Assembly: GCF_003014485.1 (NCBI RefSeq)
Contig: NZ_PYGA01000013.1
Span: 62,001-126,000, forward strand
DNA from: Murinocardiopsis flavida
GTDB taxonomy: Bacteria; Actinomycetota; Actinomycetes; Streptosporangiales; Streptosporangiaceae
Direction of reading: 5' to 3'
Length of the DNA stretch: 64,000 nucleotides
Each line of letters begins with the position of its first letter. Positions within the stretch are counted from its first letter, which is position 1. The notes beneath the pieces were generated by a model, which was not told where the DNA came from, ran no database searches, and saw nothing but the letters and a program-made list of their open reading frames with translations. The position numbers and the translations under genes were made by a program. Positions 49,485-64,000 of the stretch are shown in pieces.

Positions 49485-50354
49485 TCAGTCTTCCTGCGCC
49501 ATGGCGATCAGCTCTTGGAGGCGCAGGCCGCGTTGGGCGTCCAGCTCGGGGGAGTGGCCTGAGCGGACGGCGGCGGCGAACTCCCGCCGCAGGACGGGGC
49601 GGCACTCGTCGTGGTCGATTCCGGCGCTGTCGAAGACGAGCTCCTCCTCGGGGCCGAACAGCTCGATCCGGGTCCGCGCACGCGGCAGCCGCACCGCACC
49701 CGACAGCGACGCCTGGCTGACGGCCCCGTTGTCGTGCTCGCAGGTGAGTTCGATCCATCGGCGTGCGTCGCCGGTGGACCGCACCGCCACGATGGGCCCG
49801 ACCGCCGCGTCGAGCAGGTCGAGCAGGTGCGGGCCCAGGTCGAGCAGCGCGCCGTGCTCCACGCGCCACTGCGTCGCCAGTTCCCCGCCGAGGAACGCGC
49901 CGTGCAGGTAGCACGACCGCGCACCGGCCACCGGCTGCCGCCGCGCGGCGGCGAGGAAGGCGCGCGTCGCGGGGTGGTACCGCTTGGTGAGCACGAGCTG
50001 GGACACCACCCCGGCGTCGGCGACGGCCCCGGCGACGCGGCGTGCCCCGTCGAGGGTGAGCGCGAGCGGCTTCTCCAGCAGCAGCGCCTTTCCGGCCCGT
50101 GCCGCCAGGGGCGCGAGTTCGGCCTGCACGTCGGGCGGGACCGCGAACGCGACGGCTTCGCACCGGTCGAACAGTTCCGCGACGCTGCCCGCCGCAGTGG
50201 CGCCGTGCCGCGCCGCCAGCGCGTGCGCGGCATCGGGCCGGCGGGCCCACACCGCGGTCAGTGCGGTCTCGGGCCCCGCGGCGAGCACGGGGGCGTGCAT
50301 GGCGGCGGCCCAGGGGCCCGCTCCGATCAGTCCGACTCCGACCGGTGCGGTCAT
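49485..50354 (-). CDS. Gfo/Idh/MocA-family oxidoreductase
   Basis: The 289-residue protein has the N-terminal Rossmann domain (VGVGLIGAGPWAAAMHAPVL, 5-24), LLLEKPLALTLDGARRVAGA with the Lys of the family's EKP motif (about 90-105) and a C-terminal beta-sheet domain with HGALLDLGPHLLDLLDAAVG, the usual GxxxDxGxH active site. It is slightly short for the family (about 330-380). Members oxidise or reduce sugars at ring carbons with NAD(P). It overlaps the ROK regulator gene by ATGA and ends the leftward operon. Confidence 0.82.
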   Translation of the reverse strand: MTAPVGVGLIGAGPWAAAMHAPVLAAGPETALTAVWARRPDAAHALAARHGATAAGSVAELFDRCEAVAFAVPPDVQAELAPLAARAGKALLLEKPLALTLDGARRVAGAVADAGVVSQLVLTKRYHPATRAFLAAARRQPVAGARSCYLHGAFLGGELATQWRVEHGALLDLGPHLLDLLDAAVGPIVAVRSTGDARRWIELTCEHDNGAVSQASLSGAVRLPRARTRIELFGPEEELVFDSAGIDHDECRPVLRREFAAAVRSGHSPELDAQRGLRLQELIAMAQED

Positions 50355-51571
50355 GCCCCGGCCCCCTTCCGCAATCGGGCGTCCGCCTGCGCGGGCGCGT
50401 ACAGGTGGTCGACGACGAGGTGCCCCGCGCCGCGCAGCCCGGCGTGCTCCCCGAGGAGCCCCGTGACCACGTCCAGGTGCCGGGTGATGCGGGGCAGCGC
50501 CCGCTTGTAGAGCACCTCGCGCATCCCGGTGACGAAGTTGGGTTCGGCGAGGTCGCCGGCGATCATCAGCACACCCGGGTTGAGCAGCGACACCACGGTG
50601 GTGAGGACTTCGCCGACCCGCTGGCCGGCCGCGCGGGACAGCCGGACCGCGTCGGGCTGCCCGGCGCGCAGGTGCTCGCGCACCCCCGACCCGGACGCCG
50701 TGGGCACCCCGAGTTCGGTGAGGGCGCGGGCGAGCGCGCCGCCGCTGGCGAGCGCCGCGAGGCAGCCGTACCCGCCGCACTGGCACAGTGCCGCGTCGGC
50801 GTCGGCGCCGTTCATGCGGATGTGCCCGATGTCGCCCTCGCCGCCGTCGATGCCGCGCAGCACCGACCCGCCCACGATGGCGCCTGCGCCGATGCCGGTG
50901 GAGACCTTGACCAGGGCGAACGTGGGGCAGTCGGGGTAACCGGCCGCGTGTTCGCCGAGCGCCATGAGGTTGGCGTCGTTGTCGACGAGGACGTCGACGT
51001 CGAAGTGCTGCCGCAGGTGCTCGCGGATGGGGAACGCGTCCCACCCGGGCATGATCGGCGGCAGGACGGGCCGACCGGAGGGGAAGTCGATGGGGCCGGG
51101 CACGGACAGCCCGATGCCGCACACTTCGTCCGCGCCGCGCCCGGCCTCGGCCAGCAGGGTGCGGAACCACTCGGCGACGCGGTCGAGGACGGGGACGGGC
51201 CCGTCGGCGACGCGCAGCGCAGCGGTGCTCTCGGCGAGCGGGCGCCCGCCGAGGTCCAGGACGGCGGCGCGCGCGTGGGTGGTGTCGAGGTCGGCGGTGA
51301 GCACCACGGCGTGGCCCTCGTCGAATTCCAGCCGGGTGGGCGGGCGTCCGCCGGTGGACGACTCCACCCCCGACTCCTTGACCCAGCCCGCGTCGAGCAG
51401 CACGTCGAGCCGGTGGACGACGGTGGAGCGCGACAGGCCGAGGACCTCCTGGAGTTCGCGCCGGGTCACGGCCTCGCCGCTGCGGATGAGCCGCAGCATG
51501 TGGCCGGGGCCCGTCGAACCGCCCGCCGTCATCGCCGCGCCCCGCTGGTGCTGCCGGACCTCGTTTGCCAC
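50351..51571 (-). CDS. ROK-family transcriptional regulator
   Basis: The 406-residue protein has a winged helix (about 20-75: RLIRSGEAVTRRELQEVLGL, SRSTVVHRLDVLLDAGWVKE) and a ROK sugar-kinase-like domain with VDNDANLMALGEHAAG, VKVSTGIGAGAIVGGSVLRG, the motif GDIGHIRMNG and the zinc cluster CQCGGYGCLAALASG, in which the usual Glu after GC-x reads Ala. ROK repressors respond to sugars. GTG 51571 is used; an ATG 13 codons later is possible. It is encoded among the transport genes of this locus and is the likely controller of the divergent promoters. Confidence 0.85.
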   Translation of the reverse strand: MANEVRQHQRGAAMTAGGSTGPGHMLRLIRSGEAVTRRELQEVLGLSRSTVVHRLDVLLDAGWVKESGVESSTGGRPPTRLEFDEGHAVVLTADLDTTHARAAVLDLGGRPLAESTAALRVADGPVPVLDRVAEWFRTLLAEAGRGADEVCGIGLSVPGPIDFPSGRPVLPPIMPGWDAFPIREHLRQHFDVDVLVDNDANLMALGEHAAGYPDCPTFALVKVSTGIGAGAIVGGSVLRGIDGGEGDIGHIRMNGADADAALCQCGGYGCLAALASGGALARALTELGVPTASGSGVREHLRAGQPDAVRLSRAAGQRVGEVLTTVVSLLNPGVLMIAGDLAEPNFVTGMREVLYKRALPRITRHLDVVTGLLGEHAGLRGAGHLVVDHLYAPAQADARLRKGAGA

Positions 51572-51592
51572 GCCACCCTCAGCTCTTGTCGG

Positions 51593-52459
51593 CTAGCTCT
51601 TGTCCGCTCCGCTGGTCAACCCTTCGGTGAGCATCCTCTCGGCCGCGTAGAACAGGACCACCACAGGAACGGTCAGCACGACCGACCCTGCCATGAGGAC
51701 CGTCTTGGACACCTCGATGCCGTTGGCGAGCTGCTGGAGGCCGAGCGACACCGTCCACAGGCCCGGTTCTGCGGCGAGGAACAGCAGCGCGAAGAGGAAC
51801 TCGTTCCAGGCGATCATGAAAACGTACAGCCCCGTCGCCATCAGCGAGGGCGCGGCGAGCGGCAGGATGATCCGGCGCATCGTCGCGAGCCGGGAGCACC
51901 CGTCGAGCGCCGCGGCCTCCTCGATGCTCTTGGGGATGGTGGCGAAGTAGTTGCGCAGCATGTAGATGGACACCGGGACGGTCTGCGCGATGTAGACGAT
52001 CGCCAGCCCCACCAGGCTGCCCTGGAGGCCGATCTTGGCGAACATGACGAACAGCGGCACCGCCAGCAGGGTGGCGGGGAACAGGTAGACGGCGAGGAAC
52101 AGGGCGCTGACGTGCCGGCCGCCGAAGAAGTTCAGCCTGCTGATGGCGTAGGCGCCGGGCACCGACGCGAGCAGGGTGAGCGCAACGGTGCCCAGCGACA
52201 CCAGGGCCGAGTTGCGCAGCAGCAGCAGGAAGCCCTGCCCGCCGTCCTCGGTGGAGGTCAGCACCGCGCGGTAGGTGTCGAGGGTGAACTCCGACGCCGA
52301 CACCCAGATGCGGCCGGGGTCGACCAGGAGCTGCTCGATGGGCTTCACCGACAGCACCAGCATGTAGTAGAAGGGGAAGAGGGTGATCAGCGCCAGGAAG
52401 GCGATCACCACCCAGCGCAGCGCGCCGAACAGCCGGTTCTGGAACTGGGTCGCGGTCAT
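51593..52459 (-). CDS. ABC sugar permease (MalG type), second sugar locus
   Basis: The 288-residue protein has six membrane helices and the EAA loop KSIEEAAALDGCSRLATMRR, then IILPLAAPSLMATGLYVFMI. GAGGAGG precedes ATG 52459, which overlaps the stop of the frameshifted partner permease (ATGA). It should form the membrane channel together with that partner. Confidence 0.88.
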   Translation of the reverse strand: MTATQFQNRLFGALRWVVIAFLALITLFPFYYMLVLSVKPIEQLLVDPGRIWVSASEFTLDTYRAVLTSTEDGGQGFLLLLRNSALVSLGTVALTLLASVPGAYAISRLNFFGGRHVSALFLAVYLFPATLLAVPLFVMFAKIGLQGSLVGLAIVYIAQTVPVSIYMLRNYFATIPKSIEEAAALDGCSRLATMRRIILPLAAPSLMATGLYVFMIAWNEFLFALLFLAAEPGLWTVSLGLQQLANGIEVSKTVLMAGSVVLTVPVVVLFYAAERMLTEGLTSGADKS

Positions 52460-53467
52460 TGCGCCTCCTCCTGCGTCTTCCTGCCGAAGAACCTGAAGTA
52501 GATGCCGAGCAGGACGGTGAGCACGACCGCCAGGACGAGGGCCTGGGCGGCCGCGGCGCCGACGTCGAAGCGCGCGGTCAGGAAGTCGTAGACCCGCACC
52601 GCGGCCATGTCGGTTCCGGCGCCGCCGCCCGTGAGCAGGTAGACGTCGTCGAACTTGTTGAACGTCATGATGAAGCGCAGCACCGAGAGCAGCGCGATCA
52701 CGGGCATGATGCTGCGGGAGCAGGATGTAGCGGAACTTCTGCAACGGGGTCGCCCCGTCCACGGCCGCGGCCTCCTCGATCCCGCCGGGCATGGCCTGCA
52801 ACCGGGCCAGCAGGAAGAGGAACGCGAACGGGAAGTACCGCCACATCTCGAACGCGATGACGGTGAGCAGGGCCACGGGGACGGGCACGGTGGCGCCGAG
52901 CACCGACACGTCGGTGGAGCGCTGGCTGAGGAACGCGATCGGGTCGTCCCAGCCGAGGTAGCGGGTGCCCCATTCGTTGACGACGCCGAACTGGGGGCTG
53001 AGCATGATCTCCCAGACGAACGCCACGGCGACGACCGGCGCCACGTAAGGCAGCAGCATCGACCCGCGCAGCAGGCCCCGGCCGCGGAAGGGCCGCCGCA
53101 GGGCCAGCGCCGCCACCAGGCCCAGCGCGATGGACCCGATGGTCGACCCGGCGGTGTAGACGAGGGTGGTCCACAGCGAGGTCCAGAAGCCCGGCGAGAA
53201 GAAGATCAGCTCGAAGTTGCGCAGCGTCCAGTTCCCGAGGATGCCGCTGGTCGGGATGTCGACGAGGCGCGAGCGCTGGAACGCCAGCAGCACCGTCCAC
53301 GCGATGGGCAGGACGACGACCACCAGCACCACGAGCAGCGTGGGGGAGACGAACGCCAGCCCGGCGCGGTTCTCACGGGCGGCGAAGGAGGTGCCGCGGC
53401 GGGCGGGGCGCGGTGCGGCGCCGGTCCCCTCCGGTGGCGGGGTGGTCCGGTGTTCGGGTGGGGACAT
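52456..53467 (-). pseudogene. ABC sugar permease (MalF type) with a +1 frameshift
   Basis: The region is 1012 nt long, one more than a multiple of three. The first frame reads a normal MalF-like N-terminus and EAA loop (GGIEEAAAVDGATPLQKFRY, ILLPQ) and then turns into Arg-rich nonsense. The correct continuation (IMPVIALLSVLRFIMTFNKF, DDVYLLTGGGAGTDMAAVRV) lies in another frame. The switch is at about 52711, where one extra C on the coding strand separates CAG from ATC ATG. Restored, the protein would be 336 residues with six membrane helices. This may be a real inactivating mutation, a sequencing error or, less likely, programmed slippage. Neighbouring genes are intact. Confidence 0.85.
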
Positions 53468-53539
53468 GGGAGCTACCTCGCGTGCTGTTCTGCTGCGGTT
53501 CGGTGCGGTGGCCGCATGCGCGGGGCGCGGCGGGCGCCG

Positions 53540-54928
53540 CTACCGCAGCGACTCCTGGATGGCGGTGACGTCCTCGTCGGCCTGCTCGGCGGCCTCCCGC
53601 GCGCTGAGCTGGCCGCCGGCCTGGGCGCTCACGGCCTTGGGGACGGGGAGTTCGCCCAGGGTGGCGCCGACCAGGGGGCCCTGGCCTTGGACGATGCCCC
53701 AGCGGCGCATCTCCTGGAGGCCTTCGCGCTGCCGGTCGAGGGTTTCGGCGGAGAACACCTCGGACAGCGGCTTCCTGGTGTCGACACCGGCGTCGGCCTC
53801 GTCCCAGGCCCGCTGGAACTTGTCGGGGTCGTCGGGCGGGCCGGTGCGGACCGGGAACTTGCCTTCGGGGGCCATGCCGAACCAGTCGCCGTAGCCCTCG
53901 TCGAGCATGTAGCGGACGAACTCGCGCGAGCTGCCCTGGTGCGCGGTGGTGGTGACGGTCCACGAGGTGACCTCGCCGAACTGGGCGGGTGCGGCGCCGT
54001 CGGGGCCCTTGACCGCGCTGACGACTCCGCTGTTGTCCGCCAGCCATTCGGGGTCGTCGGCGCATTGGGGGCAGCTCGGCAGGGCGTCGTCGCGCAGCCC
54101 CGCGAGCTCGTCCAGGATGAAGGAGGACCAGACGATCATCGCGGAGCGCCCGGCGAAGTAGGTGGCGCGGGTGGTGTCGACGTTCTGGATGCCGCTGGGC
54201 CCGTAGTCCTTGGCGAGGTCGCCGTAGAAGGCGAAGGCGCGCCGGCACTCGGGTGTGTCGAGCCGGATGTCGCCGCCCGCGTCGACCAGTTCGCAGCCGT
54301 TGGCGAGGGCGAAGTACTCGAAGCTCTGCTGGGTGAACGCGTCGCTGGGGTCGGTCGCCAGCGAGATGCCCTTGCGCCGGCCGGTCTGGAGGGTCTCGGC
54401 GGCGTTCTCGATGTCGGCGTAGGTCTCGGGTGCCGGCAGCCCCGCCTCCTCGAAGAGGTCCGTGCGGTAGACGAGGAGCTGGGTCCAGGCGTCGGAGGGG
54501 ACGGCGAGCCGGGTGCCGCCCTGCCGGGTGAGGTCGAGGGCCTTGGGAGTGAACGTACCGGGGCCGAGGTCGCCGACGACCTGGTCGGGCACGCGTTCGT
54601 CGAGCAGCCCGTTCGACGACATCTGGCGGACCGCGGCGAGCGGAACGCCGCCGATGACGTCGGGCAGCCGCCCTGCCGCGGCCGCGGACATGACGAGCTG
54701 GCTGAGCTGGTTCTCGTCGACGCCGACGAGTTCGACCTCGACGCCGGTCTCGGCGGTGAACCGGTCGACGATGCGCTGCGTCGCCGTGACGCGTTCGGTG
54801 AGGTTCTCCAGGCTCCACACGGTGATCGTGCGGCCGTCGTCGTCCTGCGGCGCGGAACAGGAGGTGAGCGCCAGGCCCGCTGCGACGGCGGCCGCGGCGA
54901 GCGCCTTGGTCCGGCGGAAGCTTCGCAC
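53540..54928 (-). CDS. ABC sugar-binding lipoprotein, second sugar locus
   Basis: The 462-residue protein has a lipoprotein signal (KALAAAAVAAGLALTSC, Cys about 24) and a binding-protein fold with ITVWSLENLTERVTATQRIV, LPDVIGGVPLAAVRQMSSNG, WTQLLVYRTDLFEEAGLPAP and AGRSAMIVWSSFILDELAGL. A CPQC-like pair (SCPQCADDPEW) near the middle could form a disulfide. GTG 54928 follows GGAGG at 7-8 bp; the in-frame upstream extension overlaps the promoter and is not used. It is the first gene of the leftward operon. Confidence 0.85.
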   Translation of the reverse strand: MRSFRRTKALAAAAVAAGLALTSCSAPQDDDGRTITVWSLENLTERVTATQRIVDRFTAETGVEVELVGVDENQLSQLVMSAAAAGRLPDVIGGVPLAAVRQMSSNGLLDERVPDQVVGDLGPGTFTPKALDLTRQGGTRLAVPSDAWTQLLVYRTDLFEEAGLPAPETYADIENAAETLQTGRRKGISLATDPSDAFTQQSFEYFALANGCELVDAGGDIRLDTPECRRAFAFYGDLAKDYGPSGIQNVDTTRATYFAGRSAMIVWSSFILDELAGLRDDALPSCPQCADDPEWLADNSGVVSAVKGPDGAAPAQFGEVTSWTVTTTAHQGSSREFVRYMLDEGYGDWFGMAPEGKFPVRTGPPDDPDKFQRAWDEADAGVDTRKPLSEVFSAETLDRQREGLQEMRRWGIVQGQGPLVGATLGELPVPKAVSAQAGGQLSAREAAEQADEDVTAIQESLR

Positions 54929-54986
54929 CGGTCGGCCTCCGGGAGGGGTCGGGGTGTCCGGCGCGGTGGGGCACCGCCCGGGTTCT

Positions 54987-55017
54987 GAAGTATTGAGACG
55001 CATAACATCATTACTTC
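54987..55017. promoter_or_regulatory. Inverted-repeat operator, likely for the ROK regulator
   Basis: GAAGTATTGA (54987-54996) and TCATTACTTC (55008-55017) are complementary at 9 of 10 positions around 11 bp. The site spans the leftward -10 box, so a bound repressor would block that promoter. Confidence 0.6.
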
Positions 55018-55030
55018 TGTGTTTTGACAA
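55002..55030 (-). promoter_or_regulatory. Leftward promoter of the second sugar locus
   Basis: On the minus strand TTGTCA (55025-55030) and TGTTAT (55002-55007) are spaced exactly 17 bp. Transcription would begin near 54995, about 65 nt before the binding-protein start. Confidence 0.65.
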
Positions 55031-55051
55031 TATGAAAGTGGTCGATATCTT
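55024..55051 (+). promoter_or_regulatory. Rightward promoter of the second sugar locus
   Basis: TTGACA (55024-55029) is a perfect -35 box, and TATCTT (55046-55051) lies 16 bp on. This -35 box overlaps the leftward -35 box almost base for base, so the two promoters should compete for polymerase. Confidence 0.6.
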
Positions 55052-55152
55052 CGACGCAGCGAGTCCGAACCGGCGGCTCCGCCAGGTCGGCGGGCCCCAG
55101 CGGGCCCGATACCGCGAGCCGTCCGTGCCGTCGTGTGAACCCGGGAGCCCCC

Positions 55153-56199
55153 GTGGAACGAGTCGTCCAGTTCGTCGGACCGCGCGAAGTGGCGGTCGCC
55201 GCCTACGAGCGGTCTCCGCTGCCGCCCGGGCACCTGCGGGTGCGCACCCGCTACTCCGGGATCTCCGCGGGCACCGAACTCACCGCCTACCGCGGCACCA
55301 ACCCCTACCTGACCCGCTCCTGGGACCCGGCGGCGCGGCTGTTCCGCGACGGCGCACCCGGGTTCGAGTACCCAGTCGCCGGGTGGGGCTACTCGGAGAC
55401 GGGCGAGGTCACCGAGGTCGCGCCCGACGTCGCCGGCGCGCCGGGCGTCCCGGCAGTCGGCGACGAGGTCTGGGGCATCTGGGGGCACCGCAGCGAAGGC
55501 GTCGTCCCCGCGGAGCGCATGATCGGACACCGGCTGCCCGCGGGGGTCGACGGACTCGCGGGCTCCTTCGCCCGCGTCGGCGCCATCGCGCTCAACGCCG
55601 TGCTCGCAGCCGACATCCACCTCGGTGAGCTCGTCGCGGTCTTCGGCCAGGGCGTCATCGGGCTGGTCACCACCCGCCTCGCCGCCCTCAACGGCGGCCA
55701 TGTCGCCGCCGTCGACGCCATCGACGCCCGCCTCGAGCGCGCCCGCGGCTTCGGCGCCGAACACGCCTTCAACGCCCGTACCGGCAGCGCCGCCGAGCGC
55801 ATCCGCGAACTGGGGGACGGCGCGGGCGCCGACACCGCCATCGAGATCAGCGGCGCCTACCCCGCGCTGCACGAGGCGCTGCGCTCGGTCGGCCCCGGCG
55901 GGCGCGTCGTCGCCTCGGGCTTCTATCAGGGCGGCGGCGACGGCCTGCGCCTCGGCGAGGAGTTCCACCACAACCGGGTCGAGCTGGTGAGCTCCCAGAT
56001 CGGCGGGGTGCCGCCCCGGCTCGCCGGCCGATGGAGCCCCGACCGCCTCCAGCGCACCTTCCTCGACCTGGTCGCCGCCGACCGGGTCGACGTCGGCTCG
56101 CTCATCAGCCACCGCGTCCCCGTCGACGCCGCCGCCGAGGCGTACACGCTCCTCGACGAGCGGCCCGCCGACGCCCTTCAGATCGTCCTGGAGTTCTGA
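55153..56199 (+). CDS. Medium-chain (zinc-type fold) dehydrogenase
   Basis: The 348-residue protein has the GroES-like N-terminal domain (RYSGISAGTELTAYRGTNPY, 30-49) and a Rossmann domain with VFGQGVIGLVTTRLAALNGG and AVDAIDARLERARGFGAEHA. The position of the catalytic zinc Cys reads Ser/Ala (SGISAGTE), and no structural-zinc Cys cluster is present, so this is a non-zinc or altered-zinc member. It probably oxidises a sugar or polyol. GTG 55153 follows GGGAG; an in-frame GTG 18 bp upstream is possible. It heads the rightward operon. Confidence 0.78.
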   Translation: MERVVQFVGPREVAVAAYERSPLPPGHLRVRTRYSGISAGTELTAYRGTNPYLTRSWDPAARLFRDGAPGFEYPVAGWGYSETGEVTEVAPDVAGAPGVPAVGDEVWGIWGHRSEGVVPAERMIGHRLPAGVDGLAGSFARVGAIALNAVLAADIHLGELVAVFGQGVIGLVTTRLAALNGGHVAAVDAIDARLERARGFGAEHAFNARTGSAAERIRELGDGAGADTAIEISGAYPALHEALRSVGPGGRVVASGFYQGGGDGLRLGEEFHHNRVELVSSQIGGVPPRLAGRWSPDRLQRTFLDLVAADRVDVGSLISHRVPVDAAAEAYTLLDERPADALQIVLEF

Positions 56200-56204
56200 T
56201 CACC

Positions 56205-57026
56205 GTGCCAGCAGCCCCGTCCCGCCCGATCCGCCTGTCGTGCCAGGAACAGCTCCTGCCCGGCGACACCCTCCAGGCGAAGTGGGACTTCGCCACCGCG
56301 GCCGGATACGACGCCATCGAGCTGCGCGGCAAGGCCGACCACGCCTTCCGCGACCGGCTGCCCGAGCTGCGCCGGGCCCGCCGCGACGGCGTCGTCATGC
56401 CGACCGTGTGCGTCGACATGCCGCACTTCTTCGCCGCGTTCGACCCCGGCCTGCGCCGTGACGCCATCGAGCAGATGAAGTCGCAGCTCAGCGTCATCGC
56501 CGAGATCGGCGGTGTCGGCGCGCAGACCCCCGCGTCCTACGGGATGTTCTCCGCGCGGCTGCCCCCGTTCACCCCGCCGCGCGACGCGGCCGGCGACCGC
56601 GAGGTGCTCCTCGAAGGGCTCGCGGACATGGGCGCGCACGCCGAGCGCGAAGGCGTCCGGCTGTTCCTCGAACCCCTCAACCGCTACGAGGATCACATGG
56701 TCAACCGGTTGGCGCAGGCCGCGGAGCTGATCAGGGCATGCGGCAGCGACGCGGTGCGGATCGGCATCGACACCTACCACATGAACATCGAGGAGGCCGA
56801 CCCCGCCGCCGCCGTCCTCGACGCCGCACCGTGGATCGGCCACGCCCAGGTCAGCGACTCCAACCGGTTCCAGCCCGGCGCCGGGCACATCGACTGGCCG
56901 GCGGTGCTCGGCGCGGTCGACGCCATCGGCTTCGACGGTTGCCTCGCCGTGGAGTGCCGCCTCACCGGCGACCCCGAGGCCGCGGTCGCGGGCATCCCCG
57001 CGTTCCTGCGCCGGGTCGCCGGATGA
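56205..57026 (+). CDS. Sugar isomerase/epimerase-like TIM-barrel protein (AP endonuclease 2 family)
   Basis: The 273-residue protein has the xylose-isomerase-like barrel: WDFATAAGYDAIELRGKADH, a central metal site built from LFLEPLNRYEDHMVN (Glu), GIDTYHMNIEEAD (Asp, His), IGHAQVSDSNRFQPGAGHID (His, Asp) and LAVECRL (Glu). It resembles hydroxypyruvate isomerase, IolE and the recently described 3-keto-glycoside-acting members. GTG 56205 lies 5 bp after the dehydrogenase stop with GGAG upstream. It overlaps the next gene by ATGA. Confidence 0.8.
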   Translation: MPAAPSRPIRLSCQEQLLPGDTLQAKWDFATAAGYDAIELRGKADHAFRDRLPELRRARRDGVVMPTVCVDMPHFFAAFDPGLRRDAIEQMKSQLSVIAEIGGVGAQTPASYGMFSARLPPFTPPRDAAGDREVLLEGLADMGAHAEREGVRLFLEPLNRYEDHMVNRLAQAAELIRACGSDAVRIGIDTYHMNIEEADPAAAVLDAAPWIGHAQVSDSNRFQPGAGHIDWPAVLGAVDAIGFDGCLAVECRLTGDPEAAVAGIPAFLRRVAG

Positions 57027-58354
57027 CCCCCGCACCGGCCGCACCCGGCCCCGCCGCCGCCCCCGGGACGGCGGCGGAGCTGCGCCGCGCCGCCACCCGG
57101 GTGCTCCTCGGCAACTGGACCGGGCGCTCCACCGTGCCCTCCCGCGGCCTCTACCCGCACCAGTGGAGCTGGGACTCCGCGTTCATCGCCGTGGGCCTGC
57201 GGCACCTCTCGCCGCGCCGCGCCCAGTGGGAACTGGAGTCCATGACGGCCGCCCAATGGGCCGACGGGCGGCTCCCGCACATCGTGTTCGACCCCGCCAC
57301 CCCGCGCGGCGCCTACTTCCCCGGCCCCGACTTCTGGCGCTCGGCCGGCGCGGGCGCCGGCGCGAACGCGGAGACGTCGGGGATCGTGCAACCCCCCGTC
57401 CACGCCATCGCGGCGTGGGAGGTGCACCGCGCCGACCCCGAGACGTCGAGGCGGCGCGGCTTCCTGGAGCGGGTCTACCCGCGCCTCGCGGCCTGGCACC
57501 ACTACCTCGCCCGCGAGCGCGACCTCGGCGGCGCCGGGCTCGCCGCAGCCGTCCACCCGTGGGAGTCCGGCATGGACAACAGCCCGGCCTGGGACGCCGC
57601 GCTCGCCCGCGTCGCCCCCGCGCCCGCCGACTCCTTCGCCCGCCGCGACCTCGACCACGCGCCCGTGGCCGACCGCCCCACAGATGCCGACTACGGGCGC
57701 TACGTCCGGCTCGCCGCCGATTACCGCGACCACGGCTACGACGACGCCCGCGCGCCGCACGCGTTCCGCGTCGAGGACCCCTCGATGAACGCCCTGCTCA
57801 TCGCCGCCGAGCACGCCCTCGCCGCCATCGCGGCCGAACTCGGCGGGGACGCGGCCGCCCACAGCGGCCGCGCCGCCGTGCTCACCAAGGCGCTGGTGGG
57901 CACCCTGTACGACCCCGGCGCGCGGATGTTCTTCGCCCGCGACCTCGTCACCGGCGCGCACATCGCCGAGCACACCGTCGCCGGGCTGGTCCCCCTCATC
58001 GTGCCCGGCCTGCCGGTCGCCGCCGACCTCGTCGCGACGGCGCGCGGCCCCCGGTTCGGCATCGGCCAGGGGCGCCTGGTGCCCAGCTACGACCGCACCG
58101 GCCACGCCTTCGACCCGTGCCGCTACTGGCGCGGCCCCGGCTGGTTCAACATGTCCTGGCTGGTGCACCGGGGCCTGGTCCTGCACGGCGCCGCCGACCT
58201 CGCGGCCGACCTGCGCACCGCCATGACGGCGGCGGCCGGCCGCACCGGCTTCGCCGAGTACGTCGACCCGCACAGCGGGCAGGCCCGCGGGGCCCGCGCG
58301 TTCAGTTGGACGGCGGCAGTGACACTCGACCTGCTCGCGGGGGAGGCGGCGTGA
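57023..58354 (+). CDS. MGH1-like/GH63-like (alpha/alpha)6 glycoside hydrolase
   Basis: The 443-residue protein has a helical toroid with YPHQWSWDSAFIAVGLRHLS (about 45-65), LPHIVFDP, HPWESGMDNSPAWDAAL (about 178-194), AFRVEDPSMNALLIAAEHAL, and RYWRGPGWFNMSWLVHRGL near the end. WDSAF, WESGMDNSP and GPGWxN motifs are characteristic of GH63/mannosylglycerate-hydrolase-like glucosidases. No signal peptide is present, so it acts inside the cell on imported sugar. Start and stop overlap both neighbours (ATGA and GTGA), showing one operon. Confidence 0.82.
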   Translation: MTPAPAAPGPAAAPGTAAELRRAATRVLLGNWTGRSTVPSRGLYPHQWSWDSAFIAVGLRHLSPRRAQWELESMTAAQWADGRLPHIVFDPATPRGAYFPGPDFWRSAGAGAGANAETSGIVQPPVHAIAAWEVHRADPETSRRRGFLERVYPRLAAWHHYLARERDLGGAGLAAAVHPWESGMDNSPAWDAALARVAPAPADSFARRDLDHAPVADRPTDADYGRYVRLAADYRDHGYDDARAPHAFRVEDPSMNALLIAAEHALAAIAAELGGDAAAHSGRAAVLTKALVGTLYDPGARMFFARDLVTGAHIAEHTVAGLVPLIVPGLPVAADLVATARGPRFGIGQGRLVPSYDRTGHAFDPCRYWRGPGWFNMSWLVHRGLVLHGAADLAADLRTAMTAAAGRTGFAEYVDPHSGQARGARAFSWTAAVTLDLLAGEAA

Positions 58355-60270
58355 CCGACCGGACCGTCCTCGTCCACCGGGGCGTGTTCGCCGCGGTGGA
58401 CGGACTCGGCGAGATCAGCGGCACCCGGGGCACCGCGCCCGACGGGCTGTTCGCCCGCGACGCCCGGCACCTGAGCCGGTGGCGGCTGCGCATCGACGGC
58501 GCCCCGCTCACCCGGCTGGCGCCCGGCGTCCTGGTCCCCGAAGGGACCCGCGACCGGCCGCCGGCGTTCGCGGTGTTCCGCGCGCAGGCCCTCGGCGCGC
58601 CCGGCCTCGCCGAGGAGCTGCGGATCGCCAACCACGGCGGCGAACCGCTGGCGGTCCGCGTCCGCTACAGCGCCGCCGCCGACTTCGCCGACCAGTTCGA
58701 GCTGCGCGCCGACGAGCGGCGCTACCCCAAGCCCGAGGGCGGGCACGGGCAGCGCACCCGCCCGGACGGCGTGGAGTTCCGCTACCGCCGCGGCGACTGG
58801 CTCGCGCGCACCGAGGTCGCCGCCGCCCCGGCCCCCGACGCGGTCACGGCGGGGCCCGACGGCGCCGAACTGGACTGGACGCTGACCCTGCCCGCGCACG
58901 GCTCCGCGGTCCTCGCCCTCACCGTCCGCCCGGTGCCCGCGGGGACGCCCGGCCCGGACGGTCCCATCCCCGTCCCCGTGGAGCGGGTGCGCGCCGAGGC
59001 CGCCGCCGAGACGGCGGCGTTCGCCGAGCCCCCGCCCGCCCCGCCCGGCGCGGACCCCGATCTCGCGCGGGTCTGCGCGAAGGGCCTGGCCGACCTCGCC
59101 GGGCTGCGGGTGCCCGCGCCCGGCCCCGGCGGCGCGGCCCGCGCCGTGCCCGGCGCGGGCGTCCCCTGGTTCCTCACCCTCTTCGGCCGCGACTCGCTGC
59201 TCACCTCGCTGTTCGCGCTGCCCTACCGGCCGGCGCTCGCCGCGGCGACCCTGCCGGCGCTCGCGGCGGTCCAGGGCCGCCGCCACGACCCGTCCCGGCT
59301 GGAGCAGCCCGGCCGGATCGTGCACGAGGTGCGCCACGGCGAACTCGCGCACTTCGGCCAGGTGCCCTACGCCCGCTACTACGGCAGCATCGACTCCACC
59401 CCGCTGTTCCTGGTGCTGCTGCACGCCTACACCGAGGCGACCGGGGACACCGCGCCCGCCGCGGCCCTCCAGGGCGCCGCCCGCGCCGCCGTCGCGTGGA
59501 TGTTCGCCGACGGGGGGCTCGACGAGCACGGCTACCTGACCTACCGGCCCGACCCCGGCGGCCTGGTGAACCAGTGCTGGAAGGACTCCGACGGCGCCGT
59601 CTGCACGGCCGACGGGCGCCAGGCCGAAGGGCCGATCGCGGTCGTGGAGGCGCAGGGCTACGCCTTCGACGCGCTGCGCCGCACCGCCGTCCTCGCCGCC
59701 GACGTGTGGGGCGATCCCGGCTACGCCGACCGGCTGCGCGCCGCGGCGGCGCGGCTCCGCGCCGCCGTCCACCGCGACTTCCCCATGGAGCGCCACGGCG
59801 GGTTCCCCGCGCTCGCGCTCGACGGTGACCGCCGCCAGGTCGACGTTCTCGCGTCCAACGCCGGGCACCTGCTGTTCTCCGGGCTGCTCGACACCGGCGC
59901 CGGCCGGGCGGTCGGCCGCCGCCTGCTGGAACCCGACTTCTTCTCCGGCTGGGGGGTGCGCACCCTGGCGGCGGGGCAGCGCCCCTACCATCCGCTGAGC
60001 TACCACCGGGGCAGCATCTGGCCGCACGACAACGCGGTCATCGTGGCGGGGCTCGCCCGCTACGGGCTGGCCGCGGAGGCCGCGCGGGTCGCCCGCGGAC
60101 TGGTCGGCGCCGCCGTCCGCAACGGCGACCGGCTGCCCGAGGTCCTGGGCGGCCACGACCGGGCCGCGCACCCCGACCCCGTCCCCTACCCGCACTCCTG
60201 CTCGCCGCAGGCGTGGGCGGCGGCCGCGCCGCTGGTGCTCCTCGCACACGAAAGGGCCGGGGCGGACTGA
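58351..60270 (+). CDS. Glycogen-debranching-like glycosidase (GDE N-terminal domain plus (alpha/alpha)6 domain)
   Basis: The 639-residue protein has an N-terminal beta-sandwich of the GDE_N_bis type (about 5-205: GLFARDARHLSRWRLRIDGA, FELRADERRYP) and a helical toroid (about 225-635) with GVPWFLTLFGRDSLLTSLFA, YYGSIDSTPLFLVLLHAY, NQCWKDSDGAV, AEGPIAVVEAQGYAFDALR and YHRGSIWPHDNAVIVAGLAR, the typical set of amylo-alpha-1,6-glucosidase-like enzymes. The N-domain and size suit the short bacterial group of uncertain substrate rather than classical GlgX. GTG 58351 overlaps the previous stop. It ends the rightward operon at a strong hairpin. Confidence 0.85.
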   Translation: MTDRTVLVHRGVFAAVDGLGEISGTRGTAPDGLFARDARHLSRWRLRIDGAPLTRLAPGVLVPEGTRDRPPAFAVFRAQALGAPGLAEELRIANHGGEPLAVRVRYSAAADFADQFELRADERRYPKPEGGHGQRTRPDGVEFRYRRGDWLARTEVAAAPAPDAVTAGPDGAELDWTLTLPAHGSAVLALTVRPVPAGTPGPDGPIPVPVERVRAEAAAETAAFAEPPPAPPGADPDLARVCAKGLADLAGLRVPAPGPGGAARAVPGAGVPWFLTLFGRDSLLTSLFALPYRPALAAATLPALAAVQGRRHDPSRLEQPGRIVHEVRHGELAHFGQVPYARYYGSIDSTPLFLVLLHAYTEATGDTAPAAALQGAARAAVAWMFADGGLDEHGYLTYRPDPGGLVNQCWKDSDGAVCTADGRQAEGPIAVVEAQGYAFDALRRTAVLAADVWGDPGYADRLRAAAARLRAAVHRDFPMERHGGFPALALDGDRRQVDVLASNAGHLLFSGLLDTGAGRAVGRRLLEPDFFSGWGVRTLAAGQRPYHPLSYHRGSIWPHDNAVIVAGLARYGLAAEAARVARGLVGAAVRNGDRLPEVLGGHDRAAHPDPVPYPHSCSPQAWAAAAPLVLLAHERAGAD

Positions 60271-60302: not shown

Positions 60303-61688
60303 TCAGGCGCTGCCGGTCTCCGCGCGGGCGCGGTTGGTGAAGTGGTTGACCAGCCAGAACACCACGCCGATGGCGAGCAGCGAGCCCGCGATCCCGTACT
60401 CGATCAGCGGCCGCCCCGTCACGGGGCTTGCGAAGAACACGCAGGTGATGACGCCGAGGACCGGGGCCCACGTGGGCGCCGAGTAGTGGCTGTGCGCCAC
60501 CGGGTCGCGGCGCAGTACCAGCACCGCGACGTTGACGACGGCGAACACCATGAGCAGCAGCAGCGAGGTCGTGCCGCCGAGGCTCGCGATGTCGACCGAG
60601 CTCACCAGGATGATCGCGAGGATGCTGGTGAACAGGATGGACACGAACGGGGTGCGGCGGAAGGCGAGGACGCGGCCGAACACGCTGGGGATGATCCGCT
60701 CGTTGGACATGCCGTAGAGCAGCCGCGACGCCATCATCATGTTGATCAGCGCCGTGTTGGTCAGCGCGAACATCGCGATGATCGAGAACGCGATCGGCGG
60801 GAACCACGGCGCGGCCGCCTGCACCACCAGCAGCAGTGGGCCGTCGGACGCCGCGAGTTCGTCCGTGGGCACGAGGGTCGACGTGACCAGGGCGATCACC
60901 ACGTAGATCACCGCGGTGATGGTCAGGCCCAGCAGCACGACCCGCGGGAACGTCCGCGACGGGTCCTTGGTCTCCTCGCACATGTTCACCGAGTCCTCGA
61001 ACCCGACCATGGCGAAGAACGCGAGCGCGGTGGCCGAGGTGACGGCGAGGAACGGGCTGGTGTCGGGGTTGAACTCCAGCAGCCGCCCGGGGTCGGCGGC
61101 GAGGTCGGGGTTGCTCGACCCGAAGAAGATCGCGTACGACCCGGCGGCGATCACGATGACCAGGCCGGACACCTCGATCAGGGTGAGGACCACGTTGGCC
61201 TTCACCGACTCGCTGACGCCGCGCAGGTTGATGCCGGCGAGCAGCAGCAGGAAGCCGATCGCGACGGCCCACGACGGGGTCCCCGGGCCGAAGATCTCCT
61301 TGAGGTAGTCCCCGCTGAACCCCTGCGCCGCCGACGACGCGGAGGTGATCCCGGAGCACATGACCGCGAACGCGACCATGAACGTCAGGAAGTGCACGCC
61401 GAACGCCTTGTGCACGTACAGGGCCGCGCCCGCCGCCCGCGGGTACTTGCTGACGAGCTCCAGGTAGCTGAACGCGGTCAGGAAGGCCACGACGAACGCG
61501 ACCAGGAACGGCAGCCACAGCGCGCCGCCGACCTTGCCCGCAACCACGCCGGTCAGCGAGTAGACGGTGGTGCCGAGGATGTCGCCGATGACGAACAGCA
61601 GCAGCAGTTTCGGCCCGATCACCCGCTTCAGCGGAGTGTCCTCGGAATCGCCAGTGGGGCGTTTGATGTCAGTAGGTCCGTCGCTCAC
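60303..61688 (-). CDS. APC-superfamily amino acid permease
   Basis: The 461-residue protein has twelve predicted membrane helices and the family signature at helix 1 (VIGPKLLLLFVIGDILGTTV with a G-D-I-x-G unwinding region), FSYLELVSKYPRAAGAALYV and VGFEDSVNMCEETKDPSRTF. It probably imports an amino acid or amine with protons; the substrate cannot be read. GTG 61688 follows GAGGTG. It is not obviously tied to the sugar genes. An inverted repeat CGCTCCG/CGGAGCG (61717-61735) just upstream could be its operator. Confidence 0.85.
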   Translation of the reverse strand: MSDGPTDIKRPTGDSEDTPLKRVIGPKLLLLFVIGDILGTTVYSLTGVVAGKVGGALWLPFLVAFVVAFLTAFSYLELVSKYPRAAGAALYVHKAFGVHFLTFMVAFAVMCSGITSASSAAQGFSGDYLKEIFGPGTPSWAVAIGFLLLLAGINLRGVSESVKANVVLTLIEVSGLVIVIAAGSYAIFFGSSNPDLAADPGRLLEFNPDTSPFLAVTSATALAFFAMVGFEDSVNMCEETKDPSRTFPRVVLLGLTITAVIYVVIALVTSTLVPTDELAASDGPLLLVVQAAAPWFPPIAFSIIAMFALTNTALINMMMASRLLYGMSNERIIPSVFGRVLAFRRTPFVSILFTSILAIILVSSVDIASLGGTTSLLLLMVFAVVNVAVLVLRRDPVAHSHYSAPTWAPVLGVITCVFFASPVTGRPLIEYGIAGSLLAIGVVFWLVNHFTNRARAETGSA

Positions 61689-62060
61689 TGGCGCACCTCA
61701 TGTTCCTTCCAGAATCCGCTCCGGCCAGCGGAGCGTAATGCCGTTGAACGGCACCGCATAGGGGGCGCCGTACAACAATCCGGTTCCTTCGACGGGCCGG
61801 CGCGGCGCCCCCGGAACGGGGGCCGCCCGCCCTGGCCCAGCGCGCAGACCGCGATGGGGCGGCGGCCGGTACGCGGCGTGCGCCGCGCACCGAACGGGGA
61901 CCGGTTCCCACGTCGAACGCATTGGACCGTGACCCGGCCGCCGGACAGCATCTCATGCGTCGAGACACTCTGCGAGTCGGCCGCCGGTCGCCGCCGCGAA
62001 GCCCTGCGGGGCGGGCGTTCCCGCACGTCGCCGCGGTGCCGGACGCGGTCCCGCGGCCGG
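61689..62060. other. Gene-free spacer between the APC permease and GH89 genes
   Basis: This 372-bp region has inverted repeats CGCTCCG/CGGAGCG (61717-61735) and GCCGTT/AACGGC (near 61740-61752), both suitable as control elements of the permease gene. No gene or obvious GH89 terminator is seen. Confidence 0.4.
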
Positions 62061-64000
62061 TCAGCGGTAGGCGTACGCGGCGAACAGGCGCCGCGCGACG
62101 GCGACGGTGTCGCCGCGCGGCTCGGTGGCGTAGCGCTCGCCGCCGCGGCACCAGCCCTCCTCGAAGGCCGTGAGTTCGGCGTCGAACGCCTCGGGGTCGA
62201 GCGGGGTGCCGTGCGCCAGCGACGCGGCGAGCGCCTGCGTCCACAGCCGCCAGCGCGGCAGGTGGTAGCCCTCGACAAGGCCCGACCAGTGGCGCCCGGA
62301 GTAGTCGTGCAGCCGGCTGCCCGCACGGCCCCACACGGTGATCAGCCGCCGCGCGTTCCACTCGTGCAGCCGCCGCTCCGCCTCTGTCGTGCCCTGCGCC
62401 CGGGCGTCGGCCAGCCACGGGCCCAGCAGGAACTCGCGCCGGGTCGCGAGCAGTTCGCCGAGGTCGCCCAGGAGCCCGAGGAACGCCGCGGCGGACTTGT
62501 CGGTCGCGGCCGGGTCGCCCGACCGGAACGCGTCGGCCGTCTCGGCCCGCAGTTCGCGGGCGCGCACCGCGAGGACCTGCGCCGTGACGTCGGCGAGGTC
62601 CCGGCCGTAGCGGTCGGCGCCCGCCGCCTCCGGCGCGGCGTCCAGCAGCAGCCGCCAGGCGTCGACCAGGTCGGCGGGCTCCCATTCCGGCGGGCCCGAC
62701 CCGGGGTGGGGCGGCTCGGCGGGGCTGAGGTCGCCCGTGACGCGCGGCCGCGCCACCACCGCGGAGTTCTGCGGACTGCCGGTGCGCTCCGCCGCGTAGA
62801 CCGTCGCCAGCAGGCGGCCCCACGCGTCCTCGGCGGCGCGGACCGGCCGGCCGTACCGGCGCCGCGCGAACCCCCGGAACCACTCCGGCAGATCGGGCGG
62901 TTCGGGCTCCCACAGCAGGTCGGCGAAGTGCGCGTACACGGCGGGGTCGGCGCCTTCGGCCTCCATGGTGAGGCCGGCGCCCCGGAACCGCCCCCGGTCG
63001 GGCGAACCGGCGGCCTCGGCGAGCCCGGCCGCGACCGCCGCCGGCTTGCCGTGCATCCCCGGCCGCCCGCCGAAGTTGTGCAGCATGCACCACACCCAGG
63101 GCTTGCCGTGGAACGCGGCGGTCTCCTTCCACAGCGGGCGCTGCTCGGCCCACAGGTCCTGCACGAGCAGGTGCTCGTCGGGGACGGCCGTGAGGAACGC
63201 CCGGATGCGCTCCGCCGTCCAGAACCCGCCCTTGTAGGCGAACGGCCACGACTGGAGCAGCCACACCGCGCCGGGGTCGGCGGCGACCATGGGCTCGTGG
63301 ACGGCGCGCGCGATGGCTGCCAACGCCTCGGGGCTGCCGTCGGGCGGCACCATCTCGATGAACGGGTCGGCGGCGTAGAGGTTCCCCGAACCGAAGCGGC
63401 GGGTCTGCTCCGCCATGAACCGCGCACCCACCGCCCGGAACTCGGCGGACAGCGGGTCGAGCAGGGTGGAGGAGAACTCGAACCAGCGCATCCGGTGCCC
63501 CGCCCCGAGTTGTTCCGGCAGGTGCCCGGCGAACGCCTGGAGCACCGGGGACATGCCGAGTTCACGCTCCCGCTCGATGATGCGCCGGCCCAGGTCCGCG
63601 CGGGCGTCGATGAACGGCTGCGGCAGCGGGCCGCCCCAGTGCTCGGTGCAGCCCATCCACGTGAACGGCAGGTACCCGGACCCGCCGAGGAAGTCGCGGG
63701 TGGCGTCGTCGGCCATGCCGAGCCCGCGCAGCACCGCCTGCCACACGGCCTCCTGGCCGGTCAGGGCGAGCGGGGTGGTGACGCCGTGCATCGCCATCCA
63801 GTCGATCTGGCGCTCCCAGCGCCGCCAGTCCCAGAACGCGGTGGTGTAGCTGAACGTGCAGTAGTTGAAGTGGGTGCGGTGCGCGAAACCGGTGCCGCGC
63901 CGCACCGGGGCGGTCGACGGCAGCCGGTCGGGCGGCTCGACAACGGCGGTGTCCCAGGACAGGTCGGTCCCGCACACCCGGGTCAGGTACCAGCGCAGCG
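62061..64000 (-). CDS. Alpha-N-acetylglucosaminidase, glycoside hydrolase family 89 (5' end outside window)
   Basis: At least 646 residues are visible; the frame runs off the right edge, so the N-terminus is missing. The NAGLU core is clear: NYCTFSYTTAFWDWRRWERQ, IDWMAMHGVTTPLALTGQEA, FTWMGCTEHWGGPLPQ, LYAADPFIEMVPP with the first likely catalytic Glu, QSWPFAYKGGFW, WCMLHNFGGRPGMHGKP and GLTMEAEGADPAVYAHFADL with the second. The C-terminal helical domain is complete. The enzyme removes alpha-linked GlcNAc from glycans such as mucin or heparan-type chains. Any signal peptide would lie outside the window. Confidence 0.9.
   Translation of the reverse strand, partial: LRWYLTRVCGTDLSWDTAVVEPPDRLPSTAPVRRGTGFAHRTHFNYCTFSYTTAFWDWRRWERQIDWMAMHGVTTPLALTGQEAVWQAVLRGLGMADDATRDFLGGSGYLPFTWMGCTEHWGGPLPQPFIDARADLGRRIIERERELGMSPVLQAFAGHLPEQLGAGHRMRWFEFSSTLLDPLSAEFRAVGARFMAEQTRRFGSGNLYAADPFIEMVPPDGSPEALAAIARAVHEPMVAADPGAVWLLQSWPFAYKGGFWTAERIRAFLTAVPDEHLLVQDLWAEQRPLWKETAAFHGKPWVWCMLHNFGGRPGMHGKPAAVAAGLAEAAGSPDRGRFRGAGLTMEAEGADPAVYAHFADLLWEPEPPDLPEWFRGFARRRYGRPVRAAEDAWGRLLATVYAAERTGSPQNSAVVARPRVTGDLSPAEPPHPGSGPPEWEPADLVDAWRLLLDAAPEAAGADRYGRDLADVTAQVLAVRARELRAETADAFRSGDPAATDKSAAAFLGLLGDLGELLATRREFLLGPWLADARAQGTTEAERRLHEWNARRLITVWGRAGSRLHDYSGRHWSGLVEGYHLPRWRLWTQALAASLAHGTPLDPEAFDAELTAFEEGWCRGGERYATEPRGDTVAVARRLFAAYAYR

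Follow-up and report, generated by a model that had tools for sequence, protein, structure and literature searches.

The window analysed here, a 64,000-nucleotide stretch of Murinocardiopsis flavida (contig NZ_PYGA01000013.1, positions 62,001 to 126,000, on contig 13 of a genome of 7.4 Mb), carries at positions 49485-60270 a divergent locus, predicted to serve sugar import and breakdown. Its binding protein, two permeases, zinc-less medium-chain dehydrogenase (MDR) and TIM barrel match the five consecutive E. coli K-12 genes ycjN-R, and an MGH1-like hydrolase (MGH) encoded behind the TIM barrel retains six glycerate-site residues of the glucosylglycerate hydrolase (GgH) of Mycolicibacterium hassiacum, MhGgH. 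We propose, with a probability of about 0.6, that the locus is a hydrolytic actinobacterial counterpart of ycj, which would import a glycerate glycoside, invert its sugar via a 3-keto intermediate and release glucose and glycerate; that the aglycone is glycerate is, in our judgement, highly probable. The genes had been outlined from the letters alone in an earlier, database-free reading (hereafter the original prediction), and all of them are confirmed in position and strand. The route had there been called uncharacterised, which goes too far, as a relative, E. coli ycjNOPQRS, has already been studied; among the titles and abstract starts listed from the open-licence literature, none describes the present locus.

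Correspondence with the E. coli ycj cluster

The TIM barrel (AP_endonuc_2 family; 56205-57026, plus strand), a proposed 3-keto-glycoside C4 epimerase, aligns with YcjR over its full length at 34% identity (155 bits). Its best match in the PDB is 6wn6, “3-keto-D-glucoside 4-epimerase” (148 bits), which is E. coli YcjR, as the printed chain stretch matches the YcjR sequence; the next families are D-tagatose 3-epimerase (97 bits), TM_0416 (74), YgbM (27) and IolI (23). Searched against the window's genome, YcjR finds the window TIM barrel best, with 145 bits versus 42 for the next match, and an RLPPxTxPR stretch is common to both proteins. By these comparisons the TIM barrel is the best YcjR counterpart in this genome, and we propose a C4 epimerase role for it, in support of the 3-keto-glycoside chemistry that the original prediction had suggested. 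The MDR (55135-56199, plus strand), a proposed glycoside C3 dehydrogenase, is 28% identical to YcjQ over the full length (107 bits), and YcjQ in turn finds it best in the window's genome, with 105 bits versus 51 for the next, making the MDR the best YcjQ counterpart there by sequence. The motif GISAGTE bears out the predicted lack of the catalytic zinc Cys; S-x-GTE is present in 74 of the 75 related MDR rows, the remaining row being a gap, and YcjQ has KHGTE at this place.

On the minus strand, the importer follows the same correspondence. The sugar-binding protein (53540-55030, likely ATG at 55003; Pfam SBP_bac_1) is 28% identical to YcjN (122 bits), the MalG/YcjP-type ABC permease (51593-52459) is 37% identical to YcjP (155 bits), and the frameshifted MalF/YcjO-type permease (52459-53467) matches YcjO at 37% identity (107 bits) within the N portion that the frameshift leaves intact, over part of that portion's length.

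According to RefSeq and to a table in PMC8950772, the E. coli cluster ycjMNOPQRSTUV starts with YcjM, a glucosylglycerate phosphorylase, and includes YcjT, a kojibiose phosphorylase. RefSeq further names YcjQ D-guloside 3-dehydrogenase, YcjR 3-dehydro-D-guloside 4-epimerase and YcjS D-glucoside 3-dehydrogenase, and among the references of PMC11543891 is a YcjR structure paper titled on the interconversion of gulosides to glucosides. Gene by gene, the window shares with this cluster the binding protein, the two permeases, the zinc-less MDR and the YcjR-type TIM barrel, and it likewise holds a putatively glycerate-linked glucoside enzyme, a Gfo/Idh oxidoreductase and a second alpha-glucoside enzyme. 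However, where E. coli has a GH13_18 glucosylglycerate phosphorylase and a GH65 phosphorylase, the window has the MGH1-like hydrolase plus, as in part of the related loci, a debranching-like enzyme of the GDE_N_bis family (GDE), and where E. coli has a LacI regulator and a YcjS-type Gfo/Idh, the window has a ROK-family regulator and a different Gfo/Idh. MGH, GDE and ROK have no meaningful match in the E. coli K-12 ycj cluster, and, unlike in ycj, no beta-phosphoglucomutase is found among the ten window genes scanned. Because the cleaving enzymes, the regulator and the reductase differ, the locus is of the same kind as ycj and not the same system.

The ycj set is also found in Bacillota. A Listeria operon encodes a YcjM-like protein (55% identity) and relatives of YcjQ (77%), YcjR (71%), YcjS (57%) and YcjT (49%), with an annotated glycerate kinase between its GH65 and beta-phosphoglucomutase genes; the set also lies on plasmids of Priestia and Pseudalkalibacillus, where the stretch shown has no annotated glycerate kinase. 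PMC7178133 describes the specificity of GgaP as itself derived from adjacent glycerate kinase and glucosyl-phosphoglycerate genes. As a side observation, a psp-ycj set of the chromosomal type lies on two plasmids (L156 and L157), in the conjugative IncHI2A plasmid of Enterobacter (L157) beside a qnrB6 gene; the YcjR-like protein of Listeria has matches in 55 plasmid records of Enterobacter, of which L157 is the one read.

Gene set and glycerate site in relatives

Relatives were sampled by scanning a species-genome collection with the TIM barrel and taking the best 80 of at least 583 confirmed loci (57-80% identity); since the loci were picked by TIM similarity, the presence of this gene is by construction. 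Other genes were scored by tblastn at fixed score limits, and gene order was read with a simple purpose-written gene caller. Counts out of 80 treat genes lost to contig ends as absent; counts out of 66 refer to loci whose flanks reach 8.5 kb or more before and 5.5 kb or more behind. The label Actinomycetota is borne by 78 of the 80 loci, and the other two are unlabelled. MDR is present in 71 loci, MGH in 72, the binding protein in 70, the two permeases in 69 and 70, and ROK in 55, whereas Gfo/Idh and GDE are each found in only 28. The core of binding protein, MDR, TIM barrel and MGH is complete in 62/80 loci (55/66 with long flanks), with MDR, TIM and MGH adjacent in most of the 62, and all nine genes occur together in 23/80. 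Such an order is far from chance, and the locus is widely conserved. The genes thus stay together as the one import-and-degradation unit that the original prediction had drawn, though its grouping of both glycosidases and Gfo/Idh into one set is not supported, given the 28 loci each for GDE and Gfo/Idh.

These two genes look like an accessory pair: both are present in 26/80 loci, neither in 50 and one alone in four; in two of these four, L052 and L067, the contig is short and holds a partial GDE. At least one of the two genes is thus present in 30 loci, which come from Streptomycetaceae (23), Micromonosporaceae (5) and Streptosporangiaceae (2), and shared descent may therefore explain much of the pairing. 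In the window, Gfo/Idh (49485-50354, minus strand; PF01408/PF22725) is short, at 289 residues; its structure model has a predicted local distance difference test score (pLDDT) of 93, and its Foldseek neighbours include GenD2, KijD10 3-ketoreductase, GnnA, levoglucosan dehydrogenase and UDP-GlcNAc 3-dehydrogenase, as well as inositol and other dehydrogenases. In fold, these neighbours are compatible with a 3-keto reductase without proving it. GDE (58351-60270, plus strand; PF14742) is a two-domain, alpha-glucosidase-like enzyme, whose model (pLDDT 81, some segments below 50) lies nearest to 7vma, an archaeal amylo-alpha-1,6-glucosidase, and then to YgjK of GH63; Foldseek on this model does not discriminate the substrate.

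The MGH1-like hydrolase (GH63 clan; 57023-58354, plus strand; PF22422, 380 bits), a proposed glycosylglycerate hydrolase, overlaps both the TIM gene and the GDE gene by 4 bases, and the genome holds one match to its protein. Its best PDB relatives are TTHA0978 of Thermus thermophilus (282 bits), the 4wva protein named MgH (mannosylglycerate hydrolase) in PMC6608630, and M. hassiacum hydrolase chains (up to 236 bits). The passages of PMC6608630 on MhGgH describe polar contacts to glycerate by Tyr36, Trp40, Tyr88, Arg216 and Tyr375, water-mediated contacts by Tyr222 and others, a sugar contact by Gln434 and an acid/base pair of Asp182 and Glu419, and report that glucosylglycerol and glucosylglycolate are not cleaved. 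In our alignment the window hydrolase retains Y36, W40, Y88, R216, Y222 and Y375 together with D182 and E419. It thereby resembles GgH and MgH in fold family, acid/base pair and glycerate site; it differs in falling under the GgH cut-off, in its separate branch in the tree, and in sitting with an importer and MDR/TIM genes.

Of 75 hydrolases taken from MDR/TIM loci, 74 have the identical residue at all six glycerate-site positions, the exception (L124) ending with its contig. The 75 come from 78 loci with a match, of which L087, L119 and L127, with short or uncalled frames, were dropped by the length filter. Among 15 paralogs outside MDR/TIM loci, drawn from a set of 20 stretches, the six sites are identical in only four (L032, L033, L038 and L050, the last itself above the GgH cut-off), and Arg216 or Tyr222 is absent from every one of the remaining 11. 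The conservation is therefore not merely a property of the fold. The eleven paralogs (L039-L049, from related genomes) probably act on a different aglycone, because Arg216 or Tyr222 of the glycerate site is lost.

In three loci the hydrolase slot is occupied by a curated GgH: L082 and L088 of Geodermatophilus and L120, a Quadrisphaera metagenome contig, score 592, 625 and 628 bits on the GgH model NF047898 (cut-off 550). On L120, which is too short to show the importer, the MDR, TIM and GgH genes overlap by 4 bases. In quick trees, with branch support (SH-aLRT, an approximate likelihood-ratio test) of 95-100 on the relevant branches, the three hydrolases join MhGgH, whereas the TIM barrels encoded with them fall among those of the other loci; the outgroup of the TIM tree is a very long branch, which makes its root uninformative. 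As scores and trees indicate, a GgH of a different lineage placed in the MGH slot is a natural replacement. Phosphorylase, MGH-type and GgH-type hydrolases thus all stand beside YcjR-type TIM barrels, and each would thus lead to glycerate.

Proposed pathway and competing explanations

From these relations we infer the following reactions, their direction, the sugar and the substrate, and with them the roles of Gfo/Idh and GDE and the regulation. The importer, whose ATPase is presumably supplied from elsewhere (in the ten window genes scanned, Pfam finds none of the ABC type), would take up a hexosyl-glycerate with a non-glucose sugar, most simply gulosyl or galactosyl. The MDR would oxidise C3 of the sugar, the YcjR-like TIM barrel would then invert the 3-keto product at C4, and reduction of C3, in this locus probably by Gfo/Idh, would give glucosylglycerate. 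Stereochemistry at C3 is lost on oxidation, so that gulosyl and galactosyl residues would yield the same 3-keto intermediate. The MGH1-like enzyme would then hydrolyse glucosylglycerate to glucose and glycerate, and the latter would pass to one of the two glycerate kinases that score over the cut-off in this genome, both encoded elsewhere. GDE probably trims an additional glucose from longer forms, a role suggested by its analogy with YcjT, and ROK would repress the unit. No glucosyl-3-phosphoglycerate synthase (GpgS) scores over the cut-off in the window's genome, and glucosylglycerate is therefore unlikely to be made there by that route. The pathway agrees with the compatible-solute-type glucoside that the original prediction had considered; it would provide Streptomyces, Micromonospora, Nonomuraea and their relatives with a route for uptake and breakdown of such glycosides, and it would account for the linkage of a sugar oxidase-epimerase pair with a hydrolase.

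More tentatively, and at rather less than even odds, ycj and the actinobacterial locus may share an undescribed glycerate solute, its sugar gulosyl (inverted at C3 and C4) or galactosyl (inverted at C4) and possibly glucose-capped in the manner of kojibiosyl-glycerate, which after the same oxidise-epimerise-reduce step would be cleaved by two unrelated chemistries, phosphorolysis in enterics and Bacillota and hydrolysis in Actinomycetota. If so, a producer of gulosyl- or galactosyl-glycerate would exist in soil and gut. For YcjN of the E. coli importer, PMC11543891 reports no known ligand, a sugar screen having found none; a different cleaving enzyme with the same aglycone, glycerate, would narrow the search to a few synthesisable compounds.

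Several observations weigh against the proposed pathway. On NF047898 the window hydrolase reaches 354 bits, under the cut-off, and only the three GgH proteins among the 14 locus hydrolases tested exceed it, ten others scoring 295-363 bits. The sugar-contact Gln of MhGgH (Gln434 in the published numbering, Q433 in our alignment) is absent from the window enzyme, which has Ala433/Phe434; it is also absent from T. thermophilus MgH. The carboxylate site, though conserved, could also accept a different acid as its aglycone, and two of the three GgH loci, those of Geodermatophilus, have the importer and no MDR. As to the TIM barrel, we take E146, D179, H205 and E240 of YcjR to be metal or catalytic residues, H205 presumably a metal ligand; among 86 locus TIM barrels the equivalents of E146, D179 and E240 are kept in 86, 85 and 82, and the H205 position is Gln in 83, the window included. 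Among the matches listed (25 of 57), MDRs on rhizobial and haloarchaeal plasmids score 140-161 bits against 107 for YcjQ; by this search of the plasmid collection, YcjQ is not the closest relative of the MDR outside Actinobacteria. TIM barrels without MGH occur in 8/80 loci, three of them with long flanks (L083, L086 and L099), and L032 has MGH, GDE and ROK without MDR or TIM. Finally, Gfo/Idh matches YcjS only in the N domain (28%, 54 bits) and is only 11th of 12 YcjS matches in its own genome, on which grounds it was rejected as a YcjS orthologue; it is not found in 52/80 loci, and C3 reduction there is therefore unexplained.

Some of these points would fit two loosely linked activities behind one importer, with MGH degrading imported glucosyl- or mannosylglycerate and MDR and TIM processing another sugar, such as a released hexose or ketose. 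L032 is of this kind, as is L083, which has TIM and MDR without MGH, and MGH relatives on Ruegeria and Rhizobium plasmids follow ABC importers that are annotated as complete, while next to them neither an MDR nor a TIM gene is annotated. We nevertheless consider such loose linkage unlikely: MDR, TIM, MGH and binding protein occur together in 62/80 loci, mostly with the three enzyme genes adjacent, a GgH of different lineage occupies exactly the MGH slot, and YcjQ and YcjR are annotated as acting on glycosides. Somewhat less likely again is ordinary sugar or inositol epimerisation after hydrolysis, with the TIM barrel a ketose 3-epimerase or an IolO-like or hydroxypyruvate-isomerase-like enzyme and MDR and Gfo/Idh polyol dehydrogenases. 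For the TIM barrel, NCBIfam does list IolO at 117 bits (cut-off 300), with D-psicose 3-epimerase at 101, hydroxypyruvate isomerase at 75 and IolE at 22, and for the MDR it lists IolM (54 bits); in addition, the Gln at H205 makes the metal site less YcjR-like; yet these scores are all far below the cut-offs (290-353 for the TIM models, 450 for IolM), and YcjR is the best solved match (148 versus 97 bits), aligns over the full length and shares RLPPxTxPR. The original prediction had named firm grouping with inosose or hydroxypyruvate enzymes, like separation of the enzyme genes in relatives, as a result that would refute it; the genes stay together, and both enzyme identities were rejected on the missed cut-offs and on YcjR being nearest, far above YgbM and IolI.

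Pairs of Gfo/Idh and TIM barrel are used in glycoside cleavage by 3-oxidation and elimination, and the levoglucosan dehydrogenase pathway and C-glycoside 3-oxidation systems combine the two in 3-keto-sugar chemistry. This background counts towards a third explanation, beta-elimination of the levoglucosan, C-glycoside or ThuAB type, in which the TIM barrel would be a lyase or hydratase and Gfo/Idh the oxidase; L112 has a ThuA-family gene behind MGH and L081 has one behind TIM, where the contig ends, and the Gfo/Idh model resembles levoglucosan dehydrogenase and KijD10, among others. Window-type loci differ from those systems, however, in that Gfo/Idh is outside the core, being found in none of the 52 loci noted above, and the hydrolase is part of it. 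The levoglucosan dehydrogenase model NF052479 gives Gfo/Idh a partial match of 44 bits (cut-off 650), and among the TIM barrel's 33 structure matches to E = 1 there is no C-glycoside-cleavage, deglycosidase or levoglucosan name. On these curated-model scores and structure matches we rejected the levoglucosan reading together with the C-glycoside cleavage that the original prediction had raised, and we regard elimination as very unlikely overall.

Divergent gap, flanking genes and variant loci

The two arms of the locus diverge, with Gfo/Idh, ROK, permeases and binding protein on the minus strand and MDR, TIM, MGH and GDE on the plus strand. The ROK regulator (50351-51571, minus strand; PF00480, 148 bits) has an N-terminal helix-turn-helix. 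In the gap, a consensus scan gives a weak promoter-like site, TTGACA-16-TATCTT (55024-55051, plus strand), with one found against 0.2 expected. Of 57 divergent gaps separating the binding-protein and MDR genes, 15 contain the word TATGTCTTGTCA and 25 contain its 10-base core; the word search did not place it in the window's own gap. This word may represent a promoter or an operator for ROK. A one-base frameshift near 52700-52715 (minus strand) breaks the MalF-type permease, which is intact in the closest relative, L031; it may be an assembly error or, alternatively, mark a recently broken importer. Beyond GDE, Pfam identifies an amino-acid permease and a complete NAGLU/GH89 alpha-N-acetylglucosaminidase (60303-63977, minus strand), which adjoin the locus on the strand opposite to GDE and look like a separate unit.

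Several relatives carry variants of the locus. In L032 (8395-13243), the ROK, MGH and GDE relatives are 58-64% identical to the window's, and no MDR, TIM or importer match is found within the 20 kb covered. The Agromyces locus L112 (637-5208 and 12075-12806) has, besides its ThuA-family gene behind MGH, a second MDR, a second TIM barrel, a DUF6807 gene and a cupin gene beside ROK. An MDR-type gene of less than 45% identity occurs in 23 of 86 loci, mostly of Nonomuraea, and is a fragment of the main gene in L098; a second Gfo/Idh beside it is Pfam-confirmed in both loci checked, L091 and L076. The stretches concerned are L091:7961-16359 and L076:12171-16317. Nonomuraea pusilla has an extra TIM barrel, Gfo/Idh and MDR near GT2-like and GT1/4-like glycosyltransferase genes. 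The gene order in other Nonomuraea loci looks similar, and in Rhodococcus rhodnii a Gfo/Idh, an MDR and the start of what looks like a similar glycosyltransferase are encoded close by.

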